Shown piece by piece: positions 5,531 to 15,480 of a stretch of 64,000 nucleotides of DNA. Numbering within the stretch: the first letter of the stretch is position 1; each line of letters opens with the position of its first letter. The position numbers were made by a program, and so were the translations under genes. This DNA comes from Desulfocarbo indianensis (GTDB taxonomy: Bacteria > Desulfobacterota > Desulfarculia > Desulfarculales > Desulfarculaceae), in the NCBI GenBank assembly GCA_001184205.1, contig LBMP01000001.1, forward strand, positions 1,144,001-1,208,000, given 5' to 3'. The notes beneath the pieces are model-generated. The model was not told the DNA's origin, ran no database searches, and was given only the letters and a program-made list of their open reading frames with translations.

Positions 5531-5748
5531 GGTATTCAAAGGCCTCCCTAGCTTCCCGCCAACCTCCCACCACCGGCCCGCGGCCGCTGCACAGCGCCGC
5601 GGGTCCACCTTGGGCGGCCCAGACCGGCAAAAACTGCATCCGCGGCGGCGCGGCCGAAAGGTAAAACCTTCCTTTTTCTCCCCTTATCGGAAAGCCTTCA
5701 AAAATGTAACTAGCTGTTATGGCAAGCCAAGTTGTCCGGCGGCCCTCG
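5531..5748. other. Intergenic region before the flagellar cluster
   Basis: No convincing gene in this stretch. It holds a strong imperfect hairpin at 5577-5603 (CCCGCGGCCGCTG against CAGCGCCGCGGG, one bulged base, two-base loop) with no T-run after it, so it is not a standard intrinsic terminator. If the FliA-like promoter at 5503-5530 is used, the hairpin would lie in the leader of the fliK transcript. Confidence 0.4.
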
Positions 5749-5766
5749 CTGGCATCAGCCTTGCTT
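5749..5766 (+). promoter_or_regulatory. Sigma-54 promoter for fliK-flgD-flgE
   Basis: CTGGCATCAGCCTTGCTT has the GG and GC dinucleotides exactly ten bases apart, as sigma-54 requires, and matches TGGCA and TTGCT of the consensus. Transcription should begin near 5776, about 30 bases before the fliK ATG. It places the hook-length and hook genes in the RpoN-dependent flagellar tier. Confidence 0.75.
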
Positions 5767-5805
5767 ATGCCTTGGCCAGCGGAATATATGCTCAGGGAGG
5801 AGCGA

Positions 5806-7524
5806 ATGAAGGCCGTAGCCATGGATTGGGATGCCGCTAGTCAACCCAACCTCGCCATAAAGCAGAATAAAACCAGCGCCGCCGCCGGCCTGTTCGCCGA
5901 GCTGTTCGCCCATTTCAGCCAGCAAAGCCTGACCCAGCCCGCGGCCGTGGCCAGCGCGCAGTCCAGCGGGAGCGGGAGTTTGCTTGCGGCCCAGTCCACC
6001 ACGTCCCAGAGCCAGGATCAGACCAACAGCCCCATCCAGAGCCTCAAAGCCAGTCTGGAGGAGACCGGCCAACCCCTGGAGCGGTTCCAGGTGGCGGCCG
6101 AGGACCGGGATAAGCTGAAGAACGTCCTGGTCATGTCCGGCTACAGCCAGGAAGACGCCCAGGAAATGATCCAGCGGGCCTCCCAGGACGATGGAACCGT
6201 GAACCTGGGCGCGCTCTTCGGGGTCATGCCGCAGTACGAGGCCGACCAGGGGCCGGTGTTCCTTTTGAATGCTGAAGACAAGACTCTCCTGGCCCAGTTG
6301 CTCAAGGACCTGGGGCTGCCCGACAACGAGGTGCGCAGCTATCTGGATTCCCTGGCCAAGCAAGGCGACAACCTGATCGTCAGCGGCCTGCCCCAAATGA
6401 TGGCGCGGGCCCTGGAATTGCAGCAGGTCAGGGACGGCGCCACCGAGGTGGACCAGGACAAGCTGCGCGACCTGCTGGCGCGCATCGGCCTCAGCTCGCA
6501 GGAAATCAACACCCTGTTGAACAAGTCCCTGGACGGGCAGGGCCGCCTCAACCCGGAGGCCTGCCTGGCGCTTCTGGAAAAAGCCGCCGCCAGCCAGGAT
6601 CAGCGCGTCAAGACATCCTTGCAGGAACTGGCGCAAAAAATCCAGGTGAACGACGGGACCAACGGCCAGGCCTCGGACGCCGAGCGCCTCAAGACCCAGG
6701 TCATGCAGTTCCTGCAAAAGACGGAGGTGCAGGCCAATCCCGAGGCAAAGCAGGAATTCGCCCAGACGCTCAAGGATTTCATGCAGGCCGACGCCGCCAG
6801 CAAGACGACCGATCTGACCTCCGAGGAGACGGCCCGGCTGGTGAAGGAGCAGAGCGGCCTGGCCACGGCCCGCTCCGGCGACCAGGGCAAGTCCGAGGGT
6901 CAGGCCCAGGATCAAAGCCAGCAGCAGAGCCAGGCCCAGGCCGGCGAGGCCGGGTTCAAGGCCCTGGCGGCCCAGAGCGCCAAGTCCTCCAGCCAGGGCG
7001 GGCAGAATTTCACGGAAACCCTCAACGCCTCATCGGCCGCCGACGGCCGCCTGGCCCAGGCGGGGAAGGCCGCCGCCGCCCAGAGAACCCTGCCCACCTA
7101 TGTGGTGCGCCAGGTGAGCGAGCAGATCGCCCAGATGGCCAAGAGCAGCCAGAACCAATTGCGCCTGGCCCTGAAGCCCCAGGAGTTGGGTGAGTTGACC
7201 ATCAAGCTCTCCATCAAGGAGGGCGCGTTGAAGGCCACCCTGGTGGCGGAAAGTTCCTCCGCCAAGCAGACCCTGGAGGCGGGGATCAACGAGCTGAAGC
7301 AGCAGTTGGCCCAGCAGGGCTTGAAGGTCGAGCGCCTGGAAGTGGTGATGAGCCCGGACGCCGAACGCCGCGAGGCCAAAAGCGGCGAACAGGACTCCAG
7401 CGGGCAAGGGGGCGACGGCTCCGAGAGCGGCGGCTCCGGGGGGAGCCAGTCCGAAGACGAGGAAATAAGCGTATCCGCGCCCGGCTTGGCTTCGCTGAGC
7501 GGGCGGGTCAATGTTTTCGCCTAA
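5806..7524 (+). CDS. fliK: Flagellar hook-length control protein FliK
   Basis: FliK is secreted by the flagellar export apparatus, measures hook length and switches export specificity through FlhB. The 572-residue protein has the expected layout: a long low-complexity Gln/Ala/Ser-rich N-terminal and central part, then the globular Flg_hook domain near residues 430-515 with LRLALKPQELGELTIKLSI and LKQQLAQQGLKVERLEVVM. The tail is acidic and Gly/Ser-rich. The ATG at 5806 follows GGGAGG at 5795-5800; upstream Met codons lie before or at the sigma-54 transcription start and are unlikely. It is the first gene of the fliK-flgD-flgE unit. Confidence 0.88.
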   Translation: MKAVAMDWDAASQPNLAIKQNKTSAAAGLFAELFAHFSQQSLTQPAAVASAQSSGSGSLLAAQSTTSQSQDQTNSPIQSLKASLEETGQPLERFQVAAEDRDKLKNVLVMSGYSQEDAQEMIQRASQDDGTVNLGALFGVMPQYEADQGPVFLLNAEDKTLLAQLLKDLGLPDNEVRSYLDSLAKQGDNLIVSGLPQMMARALELQQVRDGATEVDQDKLRDLLARIGLSSQEINTLLNKSLDGQGRLNPEACLALLEKAAASQDQRVKTSLQELAQKIQVNDGTNGQASDAERLKTQVMQFLQKTEVQANPEAKQEFAQTLKDFMQADAASKTTDLTSEETARLVKEQSGLATARSGDQGKSEGQAQDQSQQQSQAQAGEAGFKALAAQSAKSSSQGGQNFTETLNASSAADGRLAQAGKAAAAQRTLPTYVVRQVSEQIAQMAKSSQNQLRLALKPQELGELTIKLSIKEGALKATLVAESSSAKQTLEAGINELKQQLAQQGLKVERLEVVMSPDAERREAKSGEQDSSGQGGDGSESGGSGGSQSEDEEISVSAPGLASLSGRVNVFA

Positions 7525-7539: not shown

Positions 7540-8388
7540 GTGATATCCAGCATTTACCAAAGCACTGCCACCGAGAGCACGACGAGCAGCAGTTCGTCCA
7601 CCGATGCCTACAGCAGCGCCATGGGCTTGGACGCCTTTCTCACCATGTTCATGGCCCAGGTGACCAATCAGAACCCCCTGGACCCCATGGACAACACCGA
7701 ATTCACCGCGCAGTTGGCCACTTTTTCCAGCCTGGAGCAGCTCACCAAGATCGCCGACTCCATGGACGCCATGAACGACCTCACCAGCGCGGTGGAGCAG
7801 GGCAACATCGTCAACTACATCGGCCGCGGCGTCACCCTGGCCGGCGACGTGCTGCCCATAGCCCAAGGCTACGTGGGCCGGGTGGGCTACACCCTGGCGG
7901 AGGCCGCCGACGTGTTGGCGGTGATCACCGACGAGGACGGCAACACGGTGGCCCAGGTCTCGTTGGGATACCAAGAGGCGGGGAGCCAATACTTCCAATG
8001 GGACGCCAAGAACACCGCCGATGAAGTGGTGGGCGACGGCGCCTATCAGGTGACCTTATTGGCCACCGACAGCCAGGGCAACGCGGTGGAGGTGAGCGAC
8101 CAGACCGTCAACAGCCTGGTGACCGGGTATCAGAAGGGCTCCGACGGCGAGAACTACCTGCTCCTGGGCGACGTGGCCCTGCCCTTGAGCGAGGTGCTGG
8201 CCGTCTACTACATACCCTCCGCTTCCACCACCGGCGACGGGGAGGAGACCGAGTCGCAGACCTACGCCTCCTCCAGCGAGGAGAGTACCACCGCCGCCAG
8301 CCAGGCCACCGGCGAAGAGGAGAGCGGCGTCCTTGAAGTGTTGAAAAGCGTTCTGTCCGTGGGCGGTTTGGCCGCCGCCCTCTTGTAG
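7540..8388 (+). CDS. flgD: Flagellar hook assembly (scaffold) protein FlgD
   Basis: FlgD caps the growing hook and lets FlgE subunits polymerise. The conserved N-terminal block is clear: FLTMFMAQVTNQNPLDPMDNTEFTAQLATFSSLEQL, followed by the central tudor/FnIII-like region (residues ~90-190, with YFQWDAKNTADEVVGDGAY resembling the FLgD W-D-G motif). The C-terminal ~60 residues are Ser/Thr/Glu-rich and look like an extension. The GTG at 7540 follows AGGAGG. It lies between fliK and flgE, the usual order. Confidence 0.93.
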   Translation: MISSIYQSTATESTTSSSSSTDAYSSAMGLDAFLTMFMAQVTNQNPLDPMDNTEFTAQLATFSSLEQLTKIADSMDAMNDLTSAVEQGNIVNYIGRGVTLAGDVLPIAQGYVGRVGYTLAEAADVLAVITDEDGNTVAQVSLGYQEAGSQYFQWDAKNTADEVVGDGAYQVTLLATDSQGNAVEVSDQTVNSLVTGYQKGSDGENYLLLGDVALPLSEVLAVYYIPSASTTGDGEETESQTYASSSEESTTAASQATGEEESGVLEVLKSVLSVGGLAAALL

Positions 8389-8460: not shown

Positions 8461-10941
8461 ATGGGAATGCTAACCGCAATGTACTCGGGCGTGTCGGGCC
8501 TGAACGTGCACGGCCGGGCGCTGAGCAGCGTGGCTGACAACATCGCCAACCTCAACACCTATGCCTACAAGGCCACCCGAACCAACTTCGGCGACATCAT
8601 GGTGCATTCGCTTACCGTGGGCGGCAACGTGGTGCAACAGGTGGGCTCCGGCGCGCGGGTCATGAACGTGCAGAACCTGATGAGCCAGGGCGCCTTTGAA
8701 AGCACCGACATCCCCACCGACTTGGCCATCAACGGCAAGGGGTTCTTCCAATTGTCCGATCCCGCCGCGGTGACCGGTACGAACCAGGGCTACTACTACA
8801 CCCGGGCCGGCAATTTCGTCCTGGATGACGAAGGCTACCTGGTCAATCCCCAGGGCCTGCGGCTGAGGGGCCTGAACGTGGACAACGACGGGGTGCTGGA
8901 GCGGATCGTGGAGGACATCCAGATACTCTCCATGCAGGCCGACGCCATCGCCACCGAGACCATCGACGTGAGCGTAAACCTGGACGCAGAGGACTACGAT
9001 TACCACGACCAAAGCCAGCCCATAGACCCCACGGACAAGACCACCTACAACCACCTGACCACGGTGCGCGTCTACGATTCCCTGGGCATCGCCCACGATC
9101 TGGCGGTGTTCTTCCAGCGTCTGGACGCCGACACCTACACCGGGGCCCGGCCCACCACCACCGAGACCATCACCGGCATCTGGAAGGCCTCCGTGTTCGA
9201 GACCTCGGACGGAACCTTCACCCAGACCAATATTTACGATACCAACGCGGGCGTGCTGCCCACCCCCGCGCCCACCACGCAATACTCCAATACCTATTTC
9301 CTGCATTTCGACACCAACGGGCATCTGGTGGGAACCAGCACCGAGTTGGACCCGGCCGTGGACAGCCTCACCGCCTCGGCCACGGTGACCGACAGCACCC
9401 TGCCCTATAGCCCCACCGAGGCTTACGTGAGCAACCGCGCCGGCGAATCCATCACCTACACGCCGGCGCTGGCCGACGGCAGCGAGGACACCACCAACAC
9501 CACGGGCCAGCAGGTGTTCAAGAGCACCCTGGACATCACCTTCACCAACAACACCCACGCGGGCGACGTGTTCGACATCGGCACCACCACCCCCATCACC
9601 CTGACCCAGGCCAACGCGGCGGACGCGGCCAACGAGCTGGCCGACGCCATCAACCAACAGGCCGAGGGCAGGGGCTACTGGGCGGTGGCCAACGGCGCCA
9701 CGGTGACCATCTACGGCGACGCCTCCAATCCCTTCTCGGTGACCGCCACCCCGGCGGGCGCCACCACCGACGTGGGCATCACCGGCGAATCCATGCAGGA
9801 TTTGGAAGACGCCATAGATAACGGCCGGGACGCCACCGTCTCGCTCTGGATGGACACCGCGGCCTGGGGCGCGGCGAGGAGCATCAGCGTGACCACCGCC
9901 ACGGGCACCTACACCACCGCGCCCTTGGCGGTGGGCTCCAACTTTGGCGCGGTAGTGGCCGCCATCAACGCCGTTCTGCCCGCCAACGAGCAGATCACGG
10001 CCACCTACTCGGGCACCGCCGGCGCGGGTTCCACCAGCGGCAGCATTCTGTTGACGGCCTCCGGCACCGACATCACCGGCAAGGCCGGCAACGCCTTGAC
10101 CATCAGCGCCGACGTCGAGGACGGCGACCTGCGCTTTTCGGGCAGCGGTTTCGACGGCGGCATGGACGGCACCGGCACCGGCGGAGGCACCGGCTCGGAT
10201 ATCCTGGCCAACGTGACCGACGACGGCAACGGCGGCTACACCATCCAATTGGTCCGCCGCACCCCGCCGGCCACCACCGCCTACGCCGACGCGCGGATCG
10301 TCATGGCCTCCTCCAACACCTTGGGCGACGGCCTGAGCCTGGACTTCGACACCTGGACCCAGAACACCTACGCCAACAACGGCCACGCCGCCACCGGCAC
10401 CGAGAGCGAGGGAGAGCGCACGGTGACCTTCGGCTGGGAGTCGGACATCGCCGGCGCCACGGACTACGGCTCCACCGAGCCCCAGACCATGACCTTCGAC
10501 TTCACGCCCAGCTCCACCTCCAACAGCACCCAGTCGGCCGGCGCCTCGGAGACCTTCTATCTGTATCAGGACGGCTCGGCGCGCGGCTCCCTGCAATCGG
10601 TGGACATAGACCAGGATGGCCTCATCACCGGCCAGTTCAGCAACGGCACCCTGCGCACCCTGGGAGCGGTGATGCTGGCCAACTTCGCCAACCCGGCGGC
10701 CCTGGAGCGCCAGGGCGACAACCTGTGGGTGCAGACGCTCAATTCCGGCGAACCGGTGATCAACCGGCCCAACCAGGGCGGTCTGGGCGATATCGAATCC
10801 GGGGCCCTGGAGCAGTCCAACGTGGACTTGGCCAACGAGTTCGTGAAAATGATCAACTATCAGCGCGCCTTCCAGGCCAACAGCAAGACCATCAGCACCA
10901 CCGACCAGATGCTGGCCGAGCTGATCGCGCTGAAGCGCTAG
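8461..10941 (+). CDS. flgE: Flagellar hook protein FlgE (very large)
   Basis: Builds the hook joining rod and filament. The N-terminal rod/hook signature (MLTAMYSGVSGLNVHGRALSSVADNIANLNTYAYKA split over residues 3-40) and the C-terminal FlgE block (ALEQSNVDLANEFVKMINYQRAFQANSKTI) are intact. At 826 residues it is about twice the enteric length (~400). The extra ~400 residues lie in the middle, are rich in Thr, Gly, Asp and Ala, and include Flagellin_IN-like stretches (for example ANELADAINQQAEGRGYWAV). The insert should form extra surface domains on the hook. It follows flgD with a 72-base gap and is closed by a terminator-like hairpin. Confidence 0.95.
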   Translation: MGMLTAMYSGVSGLNVHGRALSSVADNIANLNTYAYKATRTNFGDIMVHSLTVGGNVVQQVGSGARVMNVQNLMSQGAFESTDIPTDLAINGKGFFQLSDPAAVTGTNQGYYYTRAGNFVLDDEGYLVNPQGLRLRGLNVDNDGVLERIVEDIQILSMQADAIATETIDVSVNLDAEDYDYHDQSQPIDPTDKTTYNHLTTVRVYDSLGIAHDLAVFFQRLDADTYTGARPTTTETITGIWKASVFETSDGTFTQTNIYDTNAGVLPTPAPTTQYSNTYFLHFDTNGHLVGTSTELDPAVDSLTASATVTDSTLPYSPTEAYVSNRAGESITYTPALADGSEDTTNTTGQQVFKSTLDITFTNNTHAGDVFDIGTTTPITLTQANAADAANELADAINQQAEGRGYWAVANGATVTIYGDASNPFSVTATPAGATTDVGITGESMQDLEDAIDNGRDATVSLWMDTAAWGAARSISVTTATGTYTTAPLAVGSNFGAVVAAINAVLPANEQITATYSGTAGAGSTSGSILLTASGTDITGKAGNALTISADVEDGDLRFSGSGFDGGMDGTGTGGGTGSDILANVTDDGNGGYTIQLVRRTPPATTAYADARIVMASSNTLGDGLSLDFDTWTQNTYANNGHAATGTESEGERTVTFGWESDIAGATDYGSTEPQTMTFDFTPSSTSNSTQSAGASETFYLYQDGSARGSLQSVDIDQDGLITGQFSNGTLRTLGAVMLANFANPAALERQGDNLWVQTLNSGEPVINRPNQGGLGDIESGALEQSNVDLANEFVKMINYQRAFQANSKTISTTDQMLAELIALKR

Positions 10942-10963
10942 AGCGCCGCCTACCGTCATTAAG

Positions 10964-11005
10964 CGCCCCGGCTTTTGCGAAAAAGGCCGGGGCGTCAATT
11001 ATTTG
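10964..11005 (+). terminator. Terminator-like hairpin after flgE
   Basis: CGCCCCGGC at 10964-10972 pairs with GCCGGGGCG at 10985-10993, a 9-bp GC stem with an A/T-rich loop. The downstream stretch TCAATTATTTG is T-rich but has no long T-run, so termination may be partial. It separates the hook unit from the motA unit. Confidence 0.6.
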
Positions 11006-11095
11006 ACCACAAGTATTTGAGCCCCTCGTCTGGCTTTTGTTGCCTAACAGGCCGAAATTTAGTAATAATTTATCACGAAACCCGCGCGGGCCATA

Positions 11096-11111
11096 TGGCA
11101 CGCGCCTTGCT
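11096..11111 (+). promoter_or_regulatory. Sigma-54 promoter for the motA-fliP unit
   Basis: TGGCACGCGCCTTGCT is essentially a perfect -24/-12 element. Transcription should start near 11122, thirty bases before the motA ATG. An AT-rich stretch at 11056-11074 just upstream could host an IHF-type bend. Confidence 0.87.
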
Positions 11112-11151
11112 GACTGTTGGAGAGGTTTCCGGCCTTGCCAAGGAGCGCCAC

Positions 11152-11916
11152 ATGGATCTGGCCACTGTAATCGGAATCGTCAGCGCTTTCGCCCTGGTGC
11201 TCATCGCCATGACCCTGGGCGGCAGCATCCTGATGTTCATAGATATTCCCAGCATGCTCATCGTGGTGGGCGGCACCATCGGCGTTACCCTGGTCAACTA
11301 TCCCTTGCGCGACGTGCTCAAGGTGGTGGGCATCGTCAAGCACGTTTTCTTCCAGAAGCTGGTGGGCGTGCCCCAGATAATCGCCCAGTTCGTGGAGTTC
11401 GCCACCAAGGCCCGCCGCGAGGGCATCCTGGCCCTGGAAGGCAGCATGAAAGAGGTGGACGATCCCTTTCTTTCCAAGGGCCTCCAGCTCACGATCGATG
11501 GCCTGGAACCCAACAATATCAAGGAAATATTGGAAACGGAGATCGACTACGTGGCCGAGCGCCACCGCCTGGGGGCCGAGATTTTTCTCACCATGGGCAC
11601 CTTCGCCCCGGCCTTGGGCATGATCGGCACTTTGATCGGCCTGGTGCAGATGCTGGCCAACCTGAGCGACCCCTCCACCATCGGCCCGGCCATGGCCGTG
11701 GCCATCATCACCACCTTTTACGGCGCGGTGCTGGCCAACATGGTCTTTTTGCCCATGAGCGGCAAGCTGAAAAACCGCTCCCAGGAAGAGGTGATGGTAA
11801 AGGAGATAATGCTTAACGGCATCCTGAGCATAGCCCGGGGCGACAACCCCAGGGTGATCGAGCAGAAGCTGCACAGCTTCCTGCCCCCGGCCATGCGCCA
11901 GTCCGTGTTCAAGTAA
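11152..11916 (+). CDS. motA: Flagellar motor stator protein MotA
   Basis: MotA forms the pentameric ion-channel ring of the stator around MotB. The 254 residues contain four membrane segments: residues ~3-22 and ~30-50, then GTFAPALGMIGTLIGLVQML and AVAIITTFYGAVLANMVFLP. The conserved channel prolines of helices 3 and 4 are present in these motifs. The cytoplasmic loop carries charged residues for FliG contact (for example AERHR). The ATG at 11152 follows AAGGAG and lies downstream of the sigma-54 start site. It is followed by two MotB-type genes, so one MotA may serve two MotB proteins. Confidence 0.93.
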   Translation: MDLATVIGIVSAFALVLIAMTLGGSILMFIDIPSMLIVVGGTIGVTLVNYPLRDVLKVVGIVKHVFFQKLVGVPQIIAQFVEFATKARREGILALEGSMKEVDDPFLSKGLQLTIDGLEPNNIKEILETEIDYVAERHRLGAEIFLTMGTFAPALGMIGTLIGLVQMLANLSDPSTIGPAMAVAIITTFYGAVLANMVFLPMSGKLKNRSQEEVMVKEIMLNGILSIARGDNPRVIEQKLHSFLPPAMRQSVFK

Positions 11917-11928
11917 GGAGAGCCCGCT

Positions 11929-12717
11929 TTGGCCCGCCGCCAGCAAGAAGAGCAGCAATCTCCCGGCATCGTGGTGCTTTACACCGCGCTGATGATTCTG
12001 CTGCTGGCCTTCTTCATCCTCCTCAATTCCATGGCCAAGGTGGAGGAGGCCCGGGTGAAGGCGGTGTTCGAGTCCCTGGTGGGCACCTTCGGCATAACCC
12101 CCGGCGGCGGCCCCAGCCCCATGCCTTCGGTGATGCAGCTCACCAAGAGCGCCAGCGCGCCCATCAACCCGGTGGAGCAGGATTATCTGGCCTTGAAGGG
12201 CCTGGTGCAGACCGAGGGCCTGGAAGGCCAGGTGAGGCTTCTGCGCTCGGACACCATCAAGACGGCGGTGCTGCCGGAGCATCTGCTGTTCCAGCCCGGC
12301 TCGGAGCGGATCAGCCCCCAGGGCGTGGCCTTCCTGAACAAGGTGGCCCAGGTGATAAAGGACCGGGACTACCGCATCAGCGTGCGCGGCCACACCGACG
12401 ACGCGCCTTCCCAACGCAGCGACGGCAAGGACAACTGGGCCATCAGCGCCGACCGGGCCCTGGCCGTGGTGCGCTATCTGGTTGCCCAGGGCGTCAACCC
12501 CGACCGCCTGGCCGCCTTCGGCCTGGCCGGCTTCGACCCCTCCTTCGCCAACGACACCTATGAGCACCGGCGCATGAACAACCGGGTGGAACTGGTGTTC
12601 GACGCCCGCGACGCCAGCCGCTGGCTGGTGCCCGAGGGCTCGGCTCCCCAGGACCGCAAGCTGGACTTCAAGGGCTTCACCTTCGACCTCCTGGGCGAGG
12701 AAAAGGGGAAGAAGTAG
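11929..12717 (+). CDS. MotB-like OmpA-domain protein lacking the channel Asp
   Basis: A 262-residue protein with one N-terminal membrane helix and a C-terminal OmpA/MotB peptidoglycan-binding domain (ISVRGHTDDAP, DNWAISADRALAVVRYL and RMNNRVELVF). In MotB the helix carries an essential Asp (as in FSDLVTLLL of the next gene). Here the aligned segment reads LYTALMILLLAFF, with Ala20 where Asp is expected. The other stator features are kept. It starts at TTG 11929 after TAAGGAG, twelve bases past motA. It cannot conduct ions alone if the alignment is right. It may mix with the canonical MotB, anchor the stator or modulate it. An OmpA-like stator accessory is the alternative. Confidence 0.82.
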   Translation: MARRQQEEQQSPGIVVLYTALMILLLAFFILLNSMAKVEEARVKAVFESLVGTFGITPGGGPSPMPSVMQLTKSASAPINPVEQDYLALKGLVQTEGLEGQVRLLRSDTIKTAVLPEHLLFQPGSERISPQGVAFLNKVAQVIKDRDYRISVRGHTDDAPSQRSDGKDNWAISADRALAVVRYLVAQGVNPDRLAAFGLAGFDPSFANDTYEHRRMNNRVELVFDARDASRWLVPEGSAPQDRKLDFKGFTFDLLGEEKGKK

Positions 12718-12719
12718 CC

Positions 12720-13451
12720 ATGGCCAGGAAGAAGCAAGGCGGGTCCGACTTCAATCCCCTGGGCTGGATGCTCACCTTCAGCGACCTGGTGACCTTGCTG
12801 CTCACCTTTTTCGTGATGCTTTTCGCCATGAAGGCGCCCGAGGTCTCCAAGCTGAAGGCGGCCTTCGGCATCTTCAGCGGCGGCTCGGCTCCCCTGGGGC
12901 TCACCGACCGGGGCACGGTGGGCAACCTGCAGGAACTCCTGGACACCATCCGCCAGCCCAGGGCCGATGAATTCGGCACCCAGGAACAGAAGCTGGCCGA
13001 GAGCCTGGAGCTGCCCCAATCCAGCGAGCCCGGGCTCTCGGGCAATTTGCAATCGGGGGTGAATTTCAAGAGCGAGGAGCGGGGCGTGGTCATAACCCTG
13101 GCCAACGATCTTTTGTTCCCGCCGGGTCAGGCCGTCCTCTCCCCCCAGGCCGAGCGGGCCATCCACCAGGCCGCAGCCGTGCTCAAACACGGCGAGCAGG
13201 AGATATCGGTGGAAGGCCACACGGACAACCTGCCGCCCGGCTCGGGAGCCACGGCCAAGGATAACTGGAGTCTTTCTTTGCAAAGGGCTTTGGCGGTGTT
13301 GCATTATCTAAATGTGAAGGAAGGCGTGGCGGCCCGCCGCCTGCGGGTGGCCGCCCTGGGCTCCACCCGCCCTCTGGCGCCCAACGACACCCCGGAGCAC
13401 AGGGCCATGAACCGCCGCACGGAGATCGTGCTTTTGATGAACAACCAGTAA
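12720..13451 (+). CDS. motB: Flagellar motor stator protein MotB
   Basis: The canonical ion-translocating stator partner. The 243 residues begin with a short basic tail, then a membrane helix with the essential Asp22 in TFSDLVTLLLTFFVML. The C-terminal OmpA domain (~110-243) has ISVEGHTDNLPPGS, DNWSLSLQRALAVLHYL and AMNRRTEIVLL, which anchor the stator to peptidoglycan. The start is two bases after the stop of the preceding MotB-like gene. Helix residues do not clearly settle H+ against Na+ use. Confidence 0.92.
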   Translation: MARKKQGGSDFNPLGWMLTFSDLVTLLLTFFVMLFAMKAPEVSKLKAAFGIFSGGSAPLGLTDRGTVGNLQELLDTIRQPRADEFGTQEQKLAESLELPQSSEPGLSGNLQSGVNFKSEERGVVITLANDLLFPPGQAVLSPQAERAIHQAAAVLKHGEQEISVEGHTDNLPPGSGATAKDNWSLSLQRALAVLHYLNVKEGVAARRLRVAALGSTRPLAPNDTPEHRAMNRRTEIVLLMNNQ

Positions 13452-13469: not shown

Positions 13470-14048
13470 ATGCCCGACGACATGGACATGGAAGTGGACG
13501 CGGGGGCCGAGGAGGCCGGGGAATCCGGCGAGCCCAAAAAGAAATCGTCCCTTAAGCTGATAATCATCATCGTGGCGGGCGTTCTGCTCTTGGGCGGCGG
13601 CGGCTTTTTCGGCTGGAAATTCTTTCTGGCCTCCGACGACAAGCCCGCCGAGAAGACCGCCCAGGAAGGCCAGGCCGAAGGCGGCAAGGAAGGCGAAGGG
13701 GCCGGCGAAAAGGGCGAGGCGGCCCAAAAGGGCCCCCACGTGCCCGGCACCGTCTTGGACATGGAGCCCTTCATCGTCAACCTGGCCGACCCGGCCGGCA
13801 AGCGCTACCTGAAGCTGAAGATCGCGGTGGACGCCAAGGATGAGAAGCTGAAAAAGGAAATCGAGGCGCGGGTGCCCCAGATCCGCGACAGCATCCTGCT
13901 GCTCCTCACCAGCAAGTCCTACGCCGACATAGCCCCGGTGGCGGGCAAGATACGCCTGCGCAACGAGATATTGCAGATATTCAACCGTTCGCTGGCCGGC
14001 GTGGGCGCGGTGCACGGGGTCTATTTCACCGATTTCGTGGTGCAGTAG
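13470..14048 (+). CDS. fliL: Flagellar basal body-associated protein FliL
   Basis: FliL surrounds stator units and stabilises them in the inner membrane. The 192 residues show an acidic N-terminal cytoplasmic tail, a membrane helix (LIIIIVAGVLLLGGGGFFGW, ~28-50), a charged Glu/Gly/Lys linker, and the periplasmic FliL domain (LDMEPFIVNLADP, then RVPQIRDSILLLLTSKSY and IFNRSL...VYFTDFVVQ). It sits between motB and fliM, its usual place. A second FliL-like gene is found at 24819. Confidence 0.93.
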   Translation: MPDDMDMEVDAGAEEAGESGEPKKKSSLKLIIIIVAGVLLLGGGGFFGWKFFLASDDKPAEKTAQEGQAEGGKEGEGAGEKGEAAQKGPHVPGTVLDMEPFIVNLADPAGKRYLKLKIAVDAKDEKLKKEIEARVPQIRDSILLLLTSKSYADIAPVAGKIRLRNEILQIFNRSLAGVGAVHGVYFTDFVVQ

Positions 14049-14107: not shown

Positions 14108-15094
14108 ATGAGCAAGATACTTAGCCAGGACGAGGTCGACGCCCTATTAAAAGGCATGAGCGGCGGCGAGATCGAGGTGGAGACCGATTCCGGCCCCGAC
14201 GCCGACGGGGTCATCATCTACGACCTCACCAACCAGGACCGCATCATCCGCGGGCGCATGCCCACCCTGGAGATCATCAACGACCGTTTCGCCCGCTTGT
14301 TCCGCACCACCTTGAGCTCGGCCCTGCGCAAGATCGTGGACATGACCACCACCAGCGTGGACATGGTCAAGTTCGGCGAGTTCATGCGCAGCCTGCCGGT
14401 GCCCACCAGCCTGCACATCTTCAAGATGGACCCCTTGCGGGGGCACGCCATCTTCGTCCTGGAGTCCAAGCTGGTCTTCAACCTGGTGGAAACCTTTCTG
14501 GGCGGCACCGGCGGGGGCGAGGTGAAGATCGAGGGCCGCGATTTCACGGCCATCGAGCACCAGCTCACCCGCAAGGTGGTGATGCTGGCCTTGAAGGACA
14601 TGGAGCAGGCCTGGAAGCCGGTGCACGAGGTGACCATGGTCTACCAGCGCACCGAGATAAATCCCCAGTTCGCCTCCATCGTGCCGCCCACCGACGTGGT
14701 CATCGTGGTGAAGTTCGAGATGGAGATGGAGCACGCCGCCGGCACCATCACCGTCTGCATACCCTATTCCACGGTGGAGCCCATCCGCTCCAAGCTCTAC
14801 GCCGGCTTCCAGAGCGATCAGTTGGAGGTGGACCACGAGTGGATGCGCCGCTTCCGCGAGCAGCTCAAGGAGGCGGAGGTGGATTTCACCGTGGAACTGG
14901 GCCGCGCCCATCTGCAATCGGGCGAGCTTCTGGACCTGAAGGTGGGCGACGTCCTGCAATTGGACAAGGACGTGAGCGACGTGCTGGTGGGCCTGGTGGA
15001 GGGCGTGCCCAAGTTCCTGGGGCGTCCCGGCACCTACCGCGGGGCCAAGGCCTTCCGGGTGGAGGGCCTGGTGGAAAGTCCCGGCCAGATATAG
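14108..15094 (+). CDS. fliM: Flagellar motor switch protein FliM
   Basis: FliM forms the C-ring middle and binds CheY-P through its N-terminal peptide, here LSQDEVDALLKG at residues 5-16. The middle CheC-like domain (~45-230) has FRTTLSSALRKIVDM, GGGEVKIEGRDFTAIE and ALKDMEQAW. The C-terminal SpoA domain follows. Total length of 328 residues is normal. The ATG follows GGGGAGGTGA. It is cotranscribed with fliL and fliN. Confidence 0.96.
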   Translation: MSKILSQDEVDALLKGMSGGEIEVETDSGPDADGVIIYDLTNQDRIIRGRMPTLEIINDRFARLFRTTLSSALRKIVDMTTTSVDMVKFGEFMRSLPVPTSLHIFKMDPLRGHAIFVLESKLVFNLVETFLGGTGGGEVKIEGRDFTAIEHQLTRKVVMLALKDMEQAWKPVHEVTMVYQRTEINPQFASIVPPTDVVIVVKFEMEMEHAAGTITVCIPYSTVEPIRSKLYAGFQSDQLEVDHEWMRRFREQLKEAEVDFTVELGRAHLQSGELLDLKVGDVLQLDKDVSDVLVGLVEGVPKFLGRPGTYRGAKAFRVEGLVESPGQI

Positions 15095-15126: not shown

Positions 15127-15480
15127 ATGGCTGAAGAGTGGGAAAGCGAAGAAATCGCGCCCAGCGGCGAGGCTTCCCTGGAGGAATTCGGCGAGCCTCA
15201 GCCCGAGAGCAAGGCGCCGGCCCGCAATATCGATTTCATCCTGGACATCCCCCTGGAAGTCACGGTGGAATTGGGCCGCACCTCCATGCTCATCAACGAC
15301 CTGCTGCAGTTGGGCCAGGGATCGGTCATCGAGCTTAACAAGCTGGCCGGCGAACCCCTGGAGATACTGGTGAACAAGAAGCTCATCGCCCGCGGCGAGG
15401 TGGTGGTGGTAAACGAGAAGTTCGGCGTGCGCCTCACCGATATCGTTTCGCCCATCGAGCGGGTCAAGTCGCTGGCCTAG
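15127..15480 (+). CDS. fliN: Flagellar motor switch protein FliN
   Basis: A C-ring base protein that also helps dock export substrates. The 117 residues comprise an acidic N-terminal ~35 residues and one SpoA domain: [62 protein letters not shown] (here cited in parts) and the usual end SPIERVKSL. It follows fliM by 32 bases and ends two bases before fliO. Confidence 0.96.

Follow-up and report, generated by a model that had tools for sequence, protein, structure and literature searches.

A MotB paralogue without the ion-binding aspartate in the flagellar operon of Desulfocarbo indianensis and many other Desulfobacterota: a candidate passive half of a one-site stator

A flagellar operon of Desulfocarbo indianensis encodes one MotA followed by two MotB-type proteins, and the first of these, MotB', has alanine in place of the aspartate with which MotB binds the coupling ion. 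Such Asp-less motA-motB'-motB loci were read 45 times, from at least 17 Desulfobacterota families. The membrane Asp of MotB carries the coupling proton or sodium ion, and its loss abolishes the function of E. coli MotB. We propose that MotB' may pair with MotB as its passive partner in a one-site MotA5-MotB-MotB' unit, and we judge the chances of this reading to be about even.

The window, a stretch of 64,000 nucleotides analysed as a whole (contig LBMP01000001.1, positions 1,144,001 to 1,208,000), carries flagellar genes in the Pfam-assigned order fliK-flgD-flgE-motA-motB'-motB-fliL-fliM-fliN, followed by fliR, flhB, and flhA. Upstream of motA lie fliK (5719-7524), flgD (7540-8388), and an flgE-type hook gene (8461..10941, + strand), all identified by Pfam and found in the same order in relatives. 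The A subunit common to the tandem is encoded by motA (11152..11916, + strand; Pfam MotA_ExbB, 111 bits), and its top NCBIfam model is PomA, with a score under the cut-off of that model. On the same strand, motB' (11929..12717; MotB_plug 40.7 bits, OmpA 70.3 bits, and alignments) and motB (12720..13451; MotB_plug 50.1 bits, OmpA 70.7 bits) both exceed the Pfam cut-offs for MotB_plug (24 bits) and OmpA, with two bases (12718-12719) between the stop of motB' and the start of motB. The coordinates and Pfam thus bear out the initial annotation, which had placed two OmpA-domain stator genes two bases apart. Downstream on the + strand, Pfam identifies fliL (13470..14048; Pfam FliL, 86 bits), fliM (14108-15094), and fliN (15127-15480). 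The start codon of motB' is TTG with GGAG upstream, and a wrong start or frame was rejected for this gene, as the alignment of relatives begins at the same place. Long open frames on the - strand opposite the flagellar genes (5755-6915, 8470-10998, and 11059-12567) are an ordinary effect of high G+C content, and no evidence of genes was seen in them.

MotB' consists of a transmembrane helix and plug at about residues 12-54, an OmpA domain at residues 120-217, and a C-terminal tail with the sequence LDFKGFTFDL (residues 245-254; 12661..12690, + strand), which contains a GFxFxL motif absent from MotB. An AlphaFold2 model built from three sequences (mean pLDDT 56) gives, at low confidence, a long helix at residues 12-54 and a C-terminal strand at residues 247-253. 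MotB' and MotB are 34% identical over 224 residues, and their helices align without a gap, which places Ala20 of MotB' (codon 11986..11988, + strand) opposite Asp22 of MotB (codon 12783..12785, + strand), the ion-binding residue that is invariant in the second-copy alignment. Pfam and this pairwise alignment agree with the earlier description of an Ala20 at the Asp position of a protein that keeps its OmpA domain. A substitute acidic residue in the channel, an objection that the annotation itself had raised, was sought and rejected, since neither Asp nor Glu occurs from -4 to +14 (helix positions numbered from the Asp site, 0) in the 45 Asp-less first copies. Among the features of a stator B subunit, MotB' has the plug helix, the OmpA domain with its peptidoglycan-binding residues, and a co-encoded MotA, whose gene lies immediately upstream here and in nearly all tandem loci, and it lacks the membrane Asp; it is therefore a MotB-family paralogue and not a functional ion-carrying MotB. 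The second copy has the plug, the OmpA domain, and the Asp. Judged by its sequence, MotB' is incapable of carrying ions via the usual residue.

Fifty tandem loci were read in whole genomes of the same phylum and in two named Desulfarculaceae records. At the Asp site, 27 first copies have Ser, 11 Ala, 5 Asp, 4 Gly, 2 Thr, and 1 Asn, a count that is no unbiased survey because these copies were picked by likeness to a MotB' profile. The second copies were not selected, and all 50 carry Asp, as do all 28 single MotBs; a 29th apparently single MotB (L042) lies at a contig edge, is in fact a first copy, and stands outside the 28. Most Asp-less loci have motA upstream and fliL-fliM-fliN downstream, motB' and motB touch or overlap in many loci with one motA serving both, and an Asp-bearing MotB follows the Asp-less MotB' in each of the 45 complete tandem loci. 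The tandem thus recurs at the same operon position across the phylum; 45 of its 50 first copies have a residue other than Asp, all 50 second copies have Asp, and this pattern is not due to chance. With a broader MotB' profile applied to 395 genomes, all matches over about 250 bits that were read (about forty genomes) proved to be first copies, and below this score first copies were mixed with ordinary MotBs. Plasmid records, judged by annotation, held single MotBs only. The view that this is an unusual stator design holds against the textbook MotAB, but not inside the phylum, where the tandem is common. In one sub-group (L082, L085, L087, and L115, from families f50, f58, and f90), the first copies carry Gly in place of the Asp and the helix sequence CFFIML, and the second copies have FNDL, with Asn preceding the Asp.

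The companions of the Asp have been lost along with it. Of the 45 Asp-less first copies, 6 have a polar residue at -3 and 3 have one at +3, versus all 45 and 42 of 45, respectively, of their second copies; these counts treat related sequences as independent and the p values are therefore too small, although the contrast is still almost complete. The residues concerned are Thr-3 and Thr+3, Trp at -6 is usually lost as well, and positions -3, 0, +3, and +7 form one helix face. The five first copies that keep the Asp retain the full set of W-6, T-3, T+3, and T/S+7. The rest of the protein tells the opposite story. In the LLxFF core, F+8 and F+9 are present in all 46 Asp-less copies (the 45 and L042), positions +4 to +6 stay aliphatic, and both the core and the helix register are as conserved in MotB' as in MotB. 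The Asp site of the Asp-less copies holds only the small residues Ser, Ala, Gly, Thr, and Asn, through about 14 changes on the tree, and the same residues account for 15% at the remaining positions of the helix. The peptidoglycan-binding residues of the OmpA domain (D157, S173, R176, and R219) are invariant or nearly so among first copies. The ion path in MotB' has evidently been dismantled as a unit with the remainder of the protein preserved, and the alignments indicate that MotB' is under selection to keep its pore-facing core and its wall-binding domain. Loss of the polar face with retention of the core and the OmpA domain fits a helix that packs inside the MotA ring without carrying an ion. 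The joint loss of the Asp and the polar residues of the same face across the phylum likewise supports the earlier suggestion that the first protein is non-conducting. Differences in MotA between tandem and single loci (e.g., at position 204) are indistinguishable from ordinary clade variation.

The tandem provides the sole two MotB_plug proteins in each of ten genomes that were checked (six of these are 97% complete or better), which makes it part of the main motor; nine of the ten have the Asp-less form, and the other, G107, is the probable conversion case described below. Together with the operon position and the constant company of an Asp-bearing MotB, these genomes support the annotated partner role of the first protein and place it within the main motor. 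Three further ordinary MotAB pairs occur in the genome of the window, where the tandem is one of four stator sets. The other MotA-MotB pairs of this genome (G000 C290, C279, and C1:1110555) belong to the same MotB family, but each has a single Asp-bearing MotB. The pair at G000:C1:1110555-1110638 (L007), which precedes the window by about 33 kb, has a divergent Asp-bearing helix, FYLSLSDLMSLLLVFF, and a MotB on a very long branch; perhaps it is not a flagellar stator.

A maximum-likelihood tree of 129 proteins placed all first copies on one side of a branch, and the second copies and single MotBs on the other, with moderate support (bootstrap 91, SH-aLRT 81), and the distribution of Asp and non-Asp residues on the tree needs only three changes. 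A quick tree built without helix and tail still clustered the groups strongly, but its first copies need three changes. MotB' likely goes back to one old event in which motB was duplicated in tandem within the main flagellar operon, a single origin that the result of the helix-free tree leaves short of proven. The first copies that keep the Asp belong to families f38 and f72 (L032, L092, and L114) and f107 (L081), and to one member of f39 (L076). The f38/f72 pairs lie between flgI-like and flgK-like genes with no adjacent motA, and their Asp-bearing first copies have the GFxFxL tail. In L076 (3933-4676, genome G107), the Asp-bearing first copy shares 79% of its helix residues with the second copy beside it, versus a mean of 30% in Asp-less pairs, and outside the helix its domain and tail group with the Asp-less copies of the same family. 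Gene conversion at the N-terminus probably explains this mixture in L076.

The tandem shares with the MotAB/PomAB stator (MotA5MotB2) its operon, MotA, transmembrane helix, plug, OmpA domain, and peptidoglycan-binding residues, and the second-copy MotB is an ordinary member of that family. The difference lies in the presence of two unlike B subunits, one of which is without the Asp and its polar companions and mostly bears the tail motif. The gliding motor AglR-AglQ-AglS of Myxococcus also combines one A-type subunit with two B-type subunits, but AglQ and AglS are both described as keeping the Asp, and whether they form heterodimers is stated as unknown (PMC9389320). The flagellar pair described here has the Asp in MotB only and thus does not belong to the AglQ/AglS type. 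Nor does MotB' match the MotY/MotX type of periplasmic scaffold, an exported protein with no MotA-pore helix, as it has a MotB_plug helix with the LLxFF core. The closest solved structure to its OmpA domain is PDB 3khn ("MotB protein, putative"), a Desulfovibrio protein; it was rejected as a solved MotB' because, within the phylum, it is most closely related to single Asp-bearing MotBs. In the proteolipid ring of V-ATPases, the ion-carrying subunit was duplicated and one carboxylate was lost, with fewer ions per turn as a result, but that protein is unrelated and its duplicated halves are fused, which makes the likeness an analogy only. A search of the open-access literature yielded no account of a tandem MotB without the Asp, and the words aspartate and tandem do not occur in the text of a 2025 MotAB phylogeny paper.

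In the one-site unit proposed here, as already suggested in the annotation, one MotB and one MotB' would form the inner dimer within a ring of five MotA. Ions would be carried by MotB only, MotB' would act as a permanently neutral bearing and a second wall anchor, and a full turn would use 5 ions at 72 degrees each rather than 10 at 36 degrees each. Since loss of the Asp abolishes the function of E. coli MotB, such a half-site unit might not turn. In the current view, two identical sites alternate in 5:2 rotary motors and each ion drives a step of 36 degrees; the 10-fold symmetry of these motors has been called almost certainly universal, and it is considered unknown if states with both sites protonated or both charged occur in the cycle (PMC9389320). 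A simple turnstile model has the unit locked when both sites are protonated, and the model that the same review attributes to Santiveri et al. allows rotation only in that state (PMC9389320). A permanently neutral MotB' would fit the latter model, with one ion per 72 degrees. The wider claim, that a MotA5-MotB-MotB' stator with one ion site has become fixed in many Desulfobacterota, breaks the 10-fold symmetry, passes through a both-neutral state, and halves the ions per turn, is offered tentatively, with a probability that we place slightly below even.

It is also conceivable that MotB' pairs with itself, and that non-conducting MotA5-MotB'2 units serve as spacers, brakes, or a torque-tuning structural ring. 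A homodimer could assemble, as the helix, plug, and peptidoglycan-binding domain are complete, and the single motA is common to both B genes. The sequence data fit heterodimers and two kinds of homodimer alike. We nevertheless regard this as improbable, since many stators would then be dead weight, kept over deep divergence, in species without any other MotB_plug protein, and the Asp-less copy never occurs without an Asp-bearing partner in complete loci. A further unlikely reading, with a modest share of our confidence, places MotB' outside the MotA pore as a periplasmic scaffold or wall anchor (cf. MotY and other extra ring proteins) that positions stators or binds FliL, with the tail used for docking. 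This would suit the intact peptidoglycan-binding residues, the position of fliL as the next gene in the operon, and the occurrence of the GFxFxL tail in 36 of 50 first copies (three of them Asp-keeping) and in none of the 50 second copies; as a guess, the tail could be a docking strand for another motor part. However, the motif is missing in fourteen first copies, and a MotA-facing LLxFF core and helix register conserved as in MotB, with small residues enforced at the Asp site, are more than the mere peptidoglycan anchor named as an alternative in the annotation would need.

Two further readings were weighed against the one-site unit. From established knowledge of MotB, loss of the Asp is expected to be dominant-negative, and a dominant inactive subunit could regulate the motor if its share among the dimers set the number of running stators with growth phase or load. 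This seems to us very improbable, because the common operon and the frequent translational coupling of motB' to motB argue for a fixed dosage. Hardly credible is a decaying duplicate (an incipient pseudogene) or an assembly error: the catalytic residue has indeed been lost, but the frames are open, the domain is conserved in at least 17 families and in named genomes and metagenome-assembled genomes (MAGs) alike, and the other invariant residues are retained, a degree of conservation that already contradicts both explanations.

A doubled motB with one Asp-less copy amounts to a natural test of how the rotary engine works. If the one-site MotA5-MotB-MotB' unit is real, it would turn if both-neutral rotation occurs and stall if the both-neutral state is locked, and it would thus decide the cycle. 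It would also mean that the gear ratio of the flagellum can evolve by site loss, as in V-ATPases. If MotB' forms dead units or a scaffold instead, it would represent a new motor part in a whole phylum.
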